From positions 434,001 to 498,000 of the forward strand of contig NZ_VKKZ01000020.1 of the NCBI RefSeq assembly GCF_008271745.1: a DNA stretch of 64,000 bases. Reading direction: 5' to 3'. Below, piece by piece: positions 33,544 to 37,494 of the stretch. The notes under the pieces are model-generated. The model was not told the origin of the DNA and searched no databases. It saw only the letters and a list, made by a program, of their open reading frames with translations. The stretch is from Rufibacter glacialis. GTDB taxonomy: Bacteria; Bacteroidota; Bacteroidia; Cytophagales; Hymenobacteraceae. How positions within the stretch are numbered: position 1 is the first letter of the stretch; each line of letters begins with the position of its first letter. A program made the translations under genes and the position numbers.

Positions 33544-34650
33544 ATGAGCATCCGTTTTTGGACTAAGAAAGAAACCAAGCCCAAACAGAAGAAAGGCTTT
33601 TTCAGAGAATGGGGAGACGCCATTCTCTTTGCCGTAGTAGCGGCTACGTTGATCCGGTGGGCTACTTTTGAGGCGTATACCATTCCTACCCCTTCCATGG
33701 AGAAGACCTTGCTGGTGGGGGATTACCTCTTCGTGAGCAAATTGCATTATGGGCCCCGCACCCCCATTACCCCCTTGCAGGTGCCGTTGACCCACCAGAC
33801 CATCTGGGGAACCAACATTCCCTCCTATTCAGATGCCATTCAGCTCAAGTCGTATCGCTTGCCCGGTTTCACCACCGTGAAGAACGATGACGTGGTGGTG
33901 TTCAACTGGCCCGCTGACACCCAGCACCCCACAGACCTGCGCATGAACTACATCAAACGCTGCATTGGCATTGCCGGTGACAAGATTGAGATGCGCGACA
34001 TGCAAGTGTACATCAATGACAAGTTGATGCCGGAACCGGAAAAAGTGCAGTACGCCTACGGCCTCCTGACCACTACGCCCATCAACGACAAGTTTTTCAA
34101 AGAGAACGACATCACCGATGTGCAGGCGGCCTACGGCGGTATTGGCTACGTGGTAAACACCACGCCTGCCATGGCTGAAAAGCTGAAAGGTTATGATTTC
34201 ATCAAGGAGGTAGTGTTGTACAAAGACAGCATAGGATCAGTGAGGGCCGAGGTTTTCCCTTTCAAGCCGTCCATGTACCCCTACAACAAAGACAACTTCG
34301 GGCCTTTCGTCATTCCCAAAGAAGGCATGACGGTAAACATCACGCCTCAAACCATTCCTTTCTATGAAATGGCCATCCGGAAATACGAAGGCTTCAAAGA
34401 AAACGAGGTAGCTGTCTCTGATGACAAGATCCTCATCAACGGCCAGGAGATCAAAGAGTACACCTTCAAACAAAACTACTACTGGATGATGGGAGACAAC
34501 CGCCATAACTCAGAAGATTCCCGCTTTTGGGGTTTCGTACCGGAAGACCACGTGGTGGGAAAAGCGGTGCTGATCTGGATGTCAGCGGATCCAACTGAGA
34601 CCCTGTTCAACAAAATTCGGTGGAGCCGCATTTTCAAAGGCATTGAATAA
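33544..34650 (+). CDS. lepB: Signal peptidase I
   Basis: A 368-residue inner-membrane peptidase that removes signal peptides from exported proteins. One membrane helix (about residues 26-44) leads to the catalytic serine S51 in IPTPSMEKTLLVGDYLFV; the general base is K138 in YIKRCIGIAGDKIE. The C-terminal box E is MGDNRHNSEDSRFWG. About 150 residues of insertion between the boxes are usual for Bacteroidota. Last gene of the operon, 10 nt after dapB. Confidence 0.96.
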   Translation: MSIRFWTKKETKPKQKKGFFREWGDAILFAVVAATLIRWATFEAYTIPTPSMEKTLLVGDYLFVSKLHYGPRTPITPLQVPLTHQTIWGTNIPSYSDAIQLKSYRLPGFTTVKNDDVVVFNWPADTQHPTDLRMNYIKRCIGIAGDKIEMRDMQVYINDKLMPEPEKVQYAYGLLTTTPINDKFFKENDITDVQAAYGGIGYVVNTTPAMAEKLKGYDFIKEVVLYKDSIGSVRAEVFPFKPSMYPYNKDNFGPFVIPKEGMTVNITPQTIPFYEMAIRKYEGFKENEVAVSDDKILINGQEIKEYTFKQNYYWMMGDNRHNSEDSRFWGFVPEDHVVGKAVLIWMSADPTETLFNKIRWSRIFKGIE

Positions 34651-34659
34651 GCACCTCTG

Positions 34660-34695
34660 GTTTAGGACTCCTTTTTAGGAAAATAGGCCTTAAAC
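34660..34695. repeat. 36-nt intergenic palindrome, copy after lepB
   Basis: Begins GTTTAGGACTCC and ends AGGCCTTAAAC, 10 nt after the lepB stop and directly before the real terminator. Confidence 0.55.
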
Positions 34696-34696
34696 A

Positions 34697-34760
34697 GAAA
34701 AAAAGGAGCATCAAAAAGGGCGGCTACATAAGTAGTCGCCCTTTTTGATGCTCCTTTTTT
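34697..34760 (+). terminator. Long terminator of the parAB-lepB operon
   Basis: A stem of about 25 bp (AAAAAAGGAGCATCAAAAAG and complement) with a T run. Confidence 0.85.
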
Positions 34761-34809: not shown

Positions 34810-36639
34810 ATGCGATTTCTCCTGCTGTTACTCATTTCTTTCCTCTTGTTCTCCCAGGTGGCCCAAGCGCAAGGGGCTACAGAATCCTCCCCCTCCTCCT
34901 GGATCAGGGTAAACCAGCTGGGGTATCTGCCGCATTCCATCAAAGTAGCGGTATTAGCTTCCAAGCAGGACCAACCCATTACCTCCTTTACCCTGCATGA
35001 CGCCCAAACCCATAAAAGGGTTCTGAAAAGCACCAAAGTCACGGGATACGGCGCCTATGCTGCCTTTACCTCAACGTACCGGCTGGATTTCTCCCAAGTC
35101 AGCAAACCCGGCTCCTATTACCTGAAGGTAAACGACACCCGTTCCCCCAGCTTTTCCATCGGGCCTAAGGTATATGACCAGACTGCGGATTTCCTGCTTC
35201 GGTACATGCGCCAGCAGCGGTGCGGCTTTAACCCTTTCCTGAAAGACTCCTGCCATACCAAAGACGGGTTTGTGGTGTTTCACCCAGACAAAAAAGTGGA
35301 TTCAACCTTTATTGACGCCACTGGGGGCTGGCATGATGCCTCTGATTATCTGCAATATGTGACTACCTCGGCCAACGCTACCTTTCAGCTGCTGTTCGCC
35401 TACCAGCAGAACCCAGGGGCGTTTGGCGATGAATTCAAGGCCAACGGCTTGCCAGGTGCCAATGGTATTCCAGACATATTGGATGAGGCCAAATGGGGCC
35501 TGGACTGGCTCCTGAAAATGTATCCCAAAGCAGACCTCATGTTCAACCAGATAGCGGATGACCGGGACCACGCCGGGTACCGGCTGCCCAACCATGACCT
35601 GGTGGACTATGGCAAGGGCCCAGGCAAGGGGCGCCCGGTATATGTTGTCACTGGCCAACCCCAGGGCTCTTTCAACTACCAGAACCGCTCCACCGGCGTG
35701 GCCTCCACTGCGGGCAAATTCTCCTCGGCGTTTAGCCTGGGAGCCCAGGTCCTGGCTAAACTAGACCCGGCCTTTGCCAAAGAACTTCAGACCAAGGCCC
35801 AGCAAGCCTATGACTTTGGGGCGGCAAGGCCAGGTGTCAGTCAAACGGCTCCCGGGCGGGCGCCTTATTTCTATGAGGAAGACAATTGGGCCGATGATAT
35901 GGAATTGGCCGCCGTGCAGCTCTCGCGGCTTACAGGCCAGAAGCTCTTTTTAAACCAAGCCGCCACATACGGAAGAATGGAGCCGCTCACTCCCTGGTTG
36001 GGGAAAGACACTGCCCGGCATTATCAGTGGTACCCGTTCATCAATTTAGGCCACTACTACCTGGCTTCCGCTGGTGAGGAAGGCACCCGTAAAGAGTTTT
36101 TGCAGAATCTACGGGCGGGTTTAGAGGCGGTTCAGCAACGCGGCCAGGGAAACGCCTTTCTCATGGGTGTTCCTTTTATCTGGTGCTCTAACAACCTGGT
36201 GGCGGGACTGGCCACGCAGGCCATGCTGTACCGGCAGCTCACCGGCGACCTTCGCTTCAACCAGATGGAGGCTTCTTTACGCGACTGGCTTTTAGGAACT
36301 AACCCGTGGGGCACCAGCATGATCATTGGGCTGCCCCGCAAAGGAGAAACGCCTGAGAATCCTCATTCTTCCCTTTCCCTGCTGAAGGGGTACCGCCTGG
36401 ATGGTGGCTTGGTAGACGGCCCTGTCTACAACAGTATTTACAGCAACCTCAAGGGGTTGAAACTGGACGCTCCTGATGAATTCGCTCCCTTTCAATCTTC
36501 TTTGGCGGTGTACCATGATGACCACGGCGACTATTCCACCAATGAACCTACCATGGACGGCACCGCCAGCCTTAGCTTTTTGTTTTCTGCCTTGCAGATG
36601 GAAGGGCGCACGAAAGGCAGCGTGGTAAAAAAAAAGTAA
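34810..36639 (+). CDS. Glycoside hydrolase family 9 enzyme (zero-frame product)
   Basis: A 609-residue secreted protein with a signal peptide (ending QVAQAQ), an N-terminal Ig-like domain (about residues 30-118; IRVNQLGYLP, GSYYLKV), and an (alpha/alpha)6 GH9 domain. The nucleophile-activating aspartates are in GGWHDASDY (D176, D179) and the acid is E579 in YSTNEPTMDGTASL. GH9 enzymes are mostly endoglucanases, but some act as exo-glucosaminidases. The zero frame ends VVKKK-stop at an A9 run containing A AAA AAG, and a polysaccharide deacetylase domain continues in the -1 frame. The full product could therefore be an 842-residue fusion. Confidence 0.9.
   Translation: MRFLLLLLISFLLFSQVAQAQGATESSPSSWIRVNQLGYLPHSIKVAVLASKQDQPITSFTLHDAQTHKRVLKSTKVTGYGAYAAFTSTYRLDFSQVSKPGSYYLKVNDTRSPSFSIGPKVYDQTADFLLRYMRQQRCGFNPFLKDSCHTKDGFVVFHPDKKVDSTFIDATGGWHDASDYLQYVTTSANATFQLLFAYQQNPGAFGDEFKANGLPGANGIPDILDEAKWGLDWLLKMYPKADLMFNQIADDRDHAGYRLPNHDLVDYGKGPGKGRPVYVVTGQPQGSFNYQNRSTGVASTAGKFSSAFSLGAQVLAKLDPAFAKELQTKAQQAYDFGAARPGVSQTAPGRAPYFYEEDNWADDMELAAVQLSRLTGQKLFLNQAATYGRMEPLTPWLGKDTARHYQWYPFINLGHYYLASAGEEGTRKEFLQNLRAGLEAVQQRGQGNAFLMGVPFIWCSNNLVAGLATQAMLYRQLTGDLRFNQMEASLRDWLLGTNPWGTSMIIGLPRKGETPENPHSSLSLLKGYRLDGGLVDGPVYNSIYSNLKGLKLDAPDEFAPFQSSLAVYHDDHGDYSTNEPTMDGTASLSFLFSALQMEGRTKGSVVKKK
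36630..36636 (+). promoter_or_regulatory. Putative -1 ribosomal frameshift site (A AAA AAG)
   Basis: The heptamer is in the exact zero-frame phase (AAA = 36631-36633, AAG = 36634-36636) and is followed at once by a TAA stop (36637-36639). It is the same slippery sequence as in dnaX. It lies within a nine-A run (36627-36635), so transcriptional slippage could do the same. A purine-rich GAAAGG lies 12 nt upstream; no clear downstream hairpin is seen. Confidence 0.5.
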
Positions 36640-37337
36640 CCACCTTTCAGGGAGCTATCATTAGAGGGGACACAGCGGAAAAGAAACTTGCTCTTCTCTT
36701 CACAGGCCATGAATTTGCGGATGGCTACCCCACTATCCGGAAGGCGCTGCGGAAGAACAACGTCAAAGCCTCCTTTTTCCTGACGGGCGATTTCTACCGG
36801 AACCCTGCTTTTGCCAAGGTCATCAAAGGGCTGAAAAAGGAAGGCCACTTCCTGGGCGCCCATTCAGACCGGCACCTGCTGTACAATGACTGGGGCAAGA
36901 GAGACTCCTTATTGGTAACTAAGGAAACATTCACTACAGACTTGCTGGCCAATTATGCGGAGATGGCCAAATTCGGGATTAAGAGGGAAGCCGCTCCTTT
37001 CTTCCTGCCCCCGTATGAGTGGTATAACCAGCAAATTGCGGACTGGTGCCAGGAGACGGGGTTCACCCTGATCAACTACACGCCGGGTACCCTCTCCCAC
37101 GCAGACTATACCTATCCCAGCCTAGGCAAACAGTACCGTACCAGTGAGTTTATATACACTTCCATCCTTAACCAGGAACAAAAGGACCCACACGGGCTGA
37201 ATGGGTATTTGCTGTTACTGCACCTCGGCACAGACCCAGCCCGCACCGACAAATTCTACCACCGGCTAGACGAACTGCTCCAGGAACTAACCCGCCGCGG
37301 ATATCAAATGGCTCCTTTGCAGGAGGTCATCCAGTAG
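36636..37337 (+). CDS. Polysaccharide deacetylase (CE4/NodB) domain in the -1 frame of the GH9 gene
   Basis: After the A9 run the -1 frame reads on for 233 codons to 37337. It encodes a CE4 fold: a first motif LLFTGHEFADGYPTI, then KASFFLTGDFYR, the metal-binding HSDRH in GAHSDRHLLYNDW, and PFFLPPYEW. There is no ATG upstream of the first motif in this frame, and the next possible start (TTG at 36912) is inside the domain, so independent translation would give a broken protein. It must be made by frameshifting or slippage from the GH9 frame, or the locus is a recent frameshift mutant or sequencing error in a homopolymer. It would remove N-acetyl groups from chitin-like or peptidoglycan-like polymers. 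Confidence 0.75.
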   Translation, partial: VTTFQGAIIRGDTAEKKLALLFTGHEFADGYPTIRKALRKNNVKASFFLTGDFYRNPAFAKVIKGLKKEGHFLGAHSDRHLLYNDWGKRDSLLVTKETFTTDLLANYAEMAKFGIKREAAPFFLPPYEWYNQQIADWCQETGFTLINYTPGTLSHADYTYPSLGKQYRTSEFIYTSILNQEQKDPHGLNGYLLLLHLGTDPARTDKFYHRLDELLQELTRRGYQMAPLQEVIQ

Positions 37338-37377: not shown

Positions 37378-37494
37378 CGATGAATAAGGATTTGGTGGGC
37401 TGTTCGTCTCCCCCTCGGTTTCCATTTTAAGATGGTTTCTCCTTCCTCAAAGGCTCAACGAATTAAGGACCCTTTTTAGGAAAACAAAGCATAG

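Follow-up and report, generated by a model that had tools for sequence, protein, structure and literature searches.

Outside mobile elements, few cellular genes of bacteria are known to have conserved −1 recoding, and E. coli dnaX (tau/gamma) is one of the closest described systems. It combines the slippery heptamer A_AAA_AAG, an SD-like stimulator at a spacing of about 10, a downstream stem-loop, and tRNALys-UUU as the sole tRNALys. The same heptamer, a similar spacing of a putative SD-like stimulator, and the same tRNALys were found for a gene that probably joins a GH9 glycosidase to a CE4 deacetylase, and a downstream stem-loop was present in some of the species that carry it. The E. coli shift truncates its product, whereas the GH9/CE4 shift would add a whole second enzyme, the stop codon lying in the 0 frame. 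The Rufibacter glacialis site further differs from E. coli dnaX in that its run consists of nine adenines (A9) and an SD element is missing. Thermus thermophilus dnaX, which is expressed by transcriptional slippage, also has a coding A9 run and two product lengths, although slippage shortens the product in Thermus and would lengthen it in GH9/CE4. Across bacteria, dnaX is expressed by the ribosome in some species and by the polymerase in others (PMC1088944 and PMC5009743, both in part), a split that resembles the one proposed below for GH9-CE4. The carboxysome gene cso2, for which −1 frameshifting was predicted in 79 of 162 species (PMC5009743, in part), is likewise a cellular gene that is frameshifted in many but not all of the species having it; however, it is a different gene and, in the same part of that source, apparently has no 5' SD stimulator. 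An SD-like element is also conserved at the recoding site of prfB in Bacteroidia, despite an occluded anti-SD (PMC8710568, in part), but the prfB shift is +1 and autoregulatory.

The mechanism is of a known kind, namely dnaX-type recoding by ribosome or polymerase. What appears to be new is the GH9/CE4 gene family, along with its conservation and the existence of two kinds of site. A search covering part of the literature retrieved no paper that pairs GH9/CE4 with frameshifting, and neither "deacetylase" nor "cellulase" occurred in the main text of PMC3711429 or in the searched part of PMC5009743. The CE4 half would be expected to appear in automated annotation as truncated or broken. The slip, if it occurs, would determine how much of a secreted glycosidase is made relative to its two-enzyme form in several families of Bacteroidota, and the natural in-frame fusions would serve as built-in controls for this recoding.

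Architecture of the GH9/CE4 Locus

The window, i.e., the whole stretch of 64,000 nucleotides of R. glacialis DNA that was analyzed, contained the following features (positions are those of the window):

33544-34650: upstream gene, signal-peptidase-like by inspection
34706..34753, +: strong terminator-like hairpin between GH9 and the upstream gene
34810..36639, +: GH9 frame (0 frame), 609 aa, with an N-terminal signal peptide MRFLLLLLISFLLFSQVAQAQG by inspection
34894..35142, +: CelD_N (cellulase N-terminal Ig-like) domain, residues 29-111, Pfam match
35173..36582, +: Glyco_hydro_9 catalytic domain, residues 122-591; HDASD and TNEPTMD stretches align with 3x17
36627..36635, +: nine-A run
36630..36636, +: slippery heptamer A AAA AAG, in 0-frame phase
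36636..37337, +: −1 frame with a CE4/NodB-fold deacetylase domain (36639-37334); GTA is the first −1 codon
36637..36639, +: 0-frame stop TAA, directly 3' of the slippery codon
37498..37541, −: strong terminator-like hairpin on the opposite strand, 3' of the GH9/CE4 unit

The GH9 frame started at the ATG at 34810 and ended GTG GTA AAA AAA AAG TAA, and the initial annotation, which had placed a KKK-stop ending in the A9 run with the heptamer in phase, was exact in its coordinates. After a −1 shift at A AAA AAG, the reading would continue as GTA ACC ACC TTT up to the TAG at 37335-37337. The resulting product agrees with the 842-residue GH9-CE4 open frame that had been claimed (609 + 1 + 232, with 233 residues added by the −1 frame). 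The CE4 domain had also been said to lack a start codon of its own; indeed, no ATG, GTG, or TTG was found in the window between the upstream −1-frame stop and this domain. Terminator-like hairpins lie on both sides of the unit, suggesting that this two-frame gene is free-standing. Near these hairpins, at about 34665-34690 and 37462-37490, there were similar stretches (CCTTTTTAGGAAAA with GGAC before it); they flank the GH9/CE4 unit and are perhaps a small repeat.

The two frames very probably form a single gene whose expression involves programmed −1 recoding. Unshifted ribosomes would produce a secreted GH9 enzyme ending at the stop beside the A run, and the fraction that moves into the −1 frame on A AAA AAG would produce the 842-residue GH9-CE4 fusion, which the shift would hold below GH9 in amount. 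Since the CE4 frame of the window lacks both a standard start codon and its own signal peptide, the shift is likely the sole route by which this deacetylase could be made and exported. The two products that had been predicted from a −1 slip at this heptamer are supported by the conservation of both the frame break and the slippery site.

Conservation of the Frame Break

Comparison of orthologues, as proposed in the initial annotation, revealed that adjacent orthologues keep the break and the slippery site, with runs of A6, A7, A8, A9, or A10. Among 16 genomes of the genus, nine (R. glacialis included) had a GH9 orthologue at a minimum identity of 57%. GH9 and CE4 were adjacent in six, where the junction was always A AAA AAG followed by TAA or TAG; five had A9 and the sixth had A6. 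In two genomes of the genus (L036 and L039), CE4 was located on a different contig, where it had a start of its own and a signal-like N-terminus, and the stand-alone CE4 genes of G002 (L036) and of R. immobilis (L064) shared the same N-terminal stretch. No CE4 match was found in the genome of G009, also of this genus; its GH9 orthologue (L006, 76%) had no A-run ending and no CE4 downstream.

At the family level, 204 genomes yielded 28 strong CE4 matches, comprising 26 adjacent −1 pairs and two stand-alone genes. The first set of loci also took in the best 80 of at least 510 confirmed named loci and 50 of 51 matches in 390 genomes of the order, with one partial match left out. Its distinct loci included 57 in-frame fusions, 43 overlapping −1 breaks, 35 separate arrangements, and one at a contig end. 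All 43 breaks had an in-phase A_AAA_AAG or A_AAA_AAA inside the overlap, where about 0.2 would be expected from the overlap sizes; the GH9 bodies of the same genes contained an in-phase A_AAA_AAR only five times in 21,519 codons. In the last 75 nt of the first-set fused linkers, the motif was in phase in none of 57 and in some phase in seven; in-phase scoring of fused loci covered these 57 of the first set. Because the fused relatives lack the in-phase motif, the comparison indicates that the fused and shifted states are alternatives, and not error versus truth.

The second set consisted of 102 loci from later searches and from 56 regions, whose selection depended on a short CE4 frame and did not involve the motif. 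It contained 68 −1 breaks, every one with the motif (60 new and eight repeats), as well as 28 fused loci, five separate ones, and a single +1 arrangement that had no motif but had a GTG start. An in-frame TAA in fused matches of the Pedobacter group was considered as a further break and rejected, being a natural C-terminal stop in the five loci inspected. Among the matches listed, a total of 103 distinct overlapping −1 junctions, spread over several families of Bacteroidota, had the motif in phase (103/103). The shift was −1 in all of them and the overlap did not exceed 16 nt in 16. The stop directly followed the slippery codon in 82/103 junctions (73/76 with short runs, A6-A8, and 9/27 with long runs, A9-A10). 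No ATG, GTG, or TTG preceded the domain in the CE4 frame in 92/103; a possible CE4 start codon was present in the other 11 (2/43 in the first set and 9/60 among the new junctions of the second).

On the CE4 tree, the frameshift label needed 14 changes, at least five of which were forced by supported branches, which indicates that shifted, fused, and separate states have interchanged repeatedly, the shifted ones always with the motif. Since the root of this tree was not inferred, it does not give the direction of gain or loss.

Two Kinds of Slippery Site

The run was A6-A8 in 76 of the 103 junctions (A6 in 72) and A9-A10 in 27. These classes differed in their upstream sequences: GGAGG occurred within 30 nt upstream of 70/76 short-run sites vs. 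3/27 long-run sites (Fisher 8e-15, kinship ignored), with a spacing of 10 in 60/76 short-run sites, and an SD-like element with A or G at its centre occurred within 22 nt in 73/76 vs. 2/27. As a background, GGAGG was present in 2.2% of 30-nt windows in the first-set GH9 bodies and in 6/57 of the 90-nt fused linkers. The slippery heptamer itself was A_AAA_AAG in 75/76 short-run vs. 12/27 long-run sites. The site in the window had no GGAGG upstream. Correction for kinship on the combined tree left five independent pairs on supported branches, of which on average 3.6 pointed the same way, 0 the opposite way, and 1.4 were ties, which was not significant; the same contrast on the CE4-only trees was under-powered, with two pairs on supported branches. 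The association between run length and SD element is suggestive but not proven, because it comprises five independent contrasts only, with a median p of 0.125.

Stimulation of −1 frameshifting by SD-like elements that lie 6-17 nt upstream is established (PMC4066793, in part), and the A6-A8 sites fit dnaX-type ribosomal frameshifting. At these sites, tRNALys(UUU) on AAG would re-pair with AAA, and the GGAGG element, in most cases 10 nt upstream, would at the same time bind the anti-SD of 16S rRNA; at seven junctions of the Pedobacter/Chitinophagaceae type, a downstream hairpin would be added to this SD-assisted slip. If this is true of the A6 class, the supposedly hidden anti-SD of Bacteroidota acts on elongating ribosomes, and A6 sites offer a direct test of the function of an occluded anti-SD during elongation. 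Nine adenines are a common threshold for polymerase slippage (PMC1088944, in part), and the A9-A10 sites possibly use RNA-polymerase slippage. At these sites, the one in the window included, the long A run would suffice with the SD element nearly absent, either through repeated ribosomal slippage or through RNA polymerase adding an A. A more general proposal, held tentatively and with slightly more doubt than belief, is that one orthologous pair uses two interchangeable mechanisms, i.e., SD-stimulated ribosomal −1 frameshifting at A6-A8 and polymerase or unassisted slippage at A9-A10, with repeated flips to in-frame fusion or to separate genes.

A six-pair hairpin of the GCCTCY/RGGAGGC type was located 5-6 nt after the slippery site in seven junctions, which belonged to Pedobacter and Chitinophagaceae records and to one genome of the Pedobacter family. 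In six sequences its covariation was not above that of shuffles (251 of 500 as high). With a seventh sequence (L264), 97.6% of cells were paired, vs. 38-60% when the pairing was slid, two pairs showed a compensatory change, and the score was reached by five of 500 shuffles, a figure that is not a probability; the pairing may also result from protein-level conservation of the same codons. The simple hairpin pattern was found in none of the 57 fused linkers, and the window had no clear downstream hairpin. A hairpin common to all sites was rejected, as per-sequence folds of the 43 first-set junctions revealed no common structure. The linkers of L112 and L118, which are in-frame fused and adjoin frameshift lineages, kept GGAGG together with a CCCTCC/GGAGGG-like inverted repeat; these are perhaps relics of a lost frameshift cassette.

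Alternative Explanations of the Two Frames

At the A9-A10 sites, that of the window included, the shift may be made by RNA polymerase, so that some mRNAs with an extra A are translated normally to the fusion. This is possible, and we lean against it rather than toward it. Nine-A runs are prone to slippage in many bacteria and are used by Thermus dnaX (PMC1088944, in part), and the near absence of the SD element from long-run sites (present in three of 27) and the lack of a strict A_AAA_AAG in 15/27 of them agree with such a route, as does the dnaX of the same genome, in which an A10 run has a −1 frame that stops at once (by inspection). On the other hand, A_AAA_AAG is kept in the remaining 12, the finding of UUU-type tRNALys alone favors ribosomal slippage, and the A6-A7 relatives fall below the length at which polymerase slippage is usual.

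The initial annotation had also named a recent mutation or a homopolymer error as alternatives to programmed −1 recoding. A homopolymer is a classic place for a frameshift mutation, a pseudogene lesion, or a sequencing error, and in-frame fusions do exist in relatives; however, the break recurs in 103 distinct junctions from many separate genomes, 72 of them with A6 only, the downstream CE4 frame bears the mark of purifying selection, and the fused relatives have no in-phase motif (0/57). Conservation of the slip site at the GH9/CE4 pair in many related bacteria thus argues against a sequencing error, and this whole group of explanations can be practically dismissed. Termination-reinitiation, in which ribosomes that finish GH9 restart on the CE4 frame, would make use of the SD-like element ahead of the stop and is possible in the 11/103 junctions where a candidate ATG, GTG, or TTG precedes the CE4 domain. 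Nevertheless, it is very unlikely as a general explanation, given that 92/103 junctions offer no start codon, that reinitiation has no need for an in-phase slippery heptamer, and that CE4 made alone would be without a signal peptide, whereas many stand-alone CE4 relatives have signal-like N-termini (by inspection). Stop-codon readthrough was rejected, since it would continue in the 0 frame, which soon closes, and CE4 is encoded in the −1 frame.

GH9 and CE4 Domains and Their Likely Function

The GH9 part matched Glyco_hydro_9 (PF00759) at 4.4e-71 and 240.9 bits (cut-off 27.7) over model positions 1-443 of 444. Its best solved match was 3x17, named endoglucanase, with which its HDA.DY and TNEP stretches aligned; we take these stretches to be the catalytic motifs of GH9.

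The initial annotation had described a complete CE4 domain. This held for the overall domain, since the deacetylase part matched Polysacc_deac_1 (PF01522; 7.9e-11, 42.4 bits, cut-off 23.1) and its AlphaFold model (mean pLDDT 90.1) had a CE4 fold, with 4l1g (2.7e-14) and PdaA 1w17 as top Foldseek matches and Bc1960 among the CE4 structures matched. One correction concerned motif 1. Canonical CE4 motifs are TFDD (motif 1) and H[ST]xxH (motif 2); here, motif 1 was FTG[DH]EFADG in most members, and HSDxH was present in most. In an alignment of 23 CE4 sequences, H75, H79, E127, and H195 were invariant and E25 was kept in most. The active site is possibly altered, with motif 1 departing from the canonical form. 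Omega in the CE4 domain was 0.04-0.14 in every pair with an estimable dS, the lowest value resting on a dS of 4.5 and several saturated pairs giving no estimate, and these values indicate that the CE4 frame is under purifying selection.

Chitin use, as suggested in the initial annotation, received weak support: NagA/NagX-like neighbors were found in 3/80 loci, and the best solved GH9 match is named endoglucanase. In Arcticibacter (L079 and L126), NagX-like and NagA-like genes lay 3' of the GH9/CE4 pair, and in one Marinimicrobia record (L139) a NagA-like gene lay 3' of CE4. No conserved gene neighborhood was found among the 20 flanking proteins scanned, which were mostly unrelated. A chitin or amino-sugar substrate is therefore weakly supported.

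Translation Machinery and dnaX of the Same Genome

tRNALys with anticodon UUU was found twice in the R. glacialis assembly and CUU was not found among the tRNAs typed, which comprised 26 loci covering 30/38 matches; of the other eight (all at least 82 nt), three were typed as neighbors. No 16S gene was found in this assembly, and some tRNAs may therefore be absent from it as well. For E. coli, having a single tRNALys is stated as the condition for slippage on A_AAA_AAG (PMC5009743, in part). Among three relatives tried, 16S was found in one, and the 16S of this member of the genus ends GGATCACCTCC with the anti-SD CCTCC intact. Bacteroidia ribosomes have been reported to hide the anti-SD, and prfB +1 frameshifting with its SD-like element nonetheless persists in these bacteria (PMC8710568, in part).

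In the dnaX gene of R. glacialis (L223, G000:C10), inspection revealed an A10 run lying in frame near codon 384, and a −1 shift at this run would meet a TAA at once. Because the run is directly followed by this −1-frame stop, dnaX is likely a second A-run recoding site in the same genome, where a short gamma-like form, as in Thermus or E. coli, is possible.
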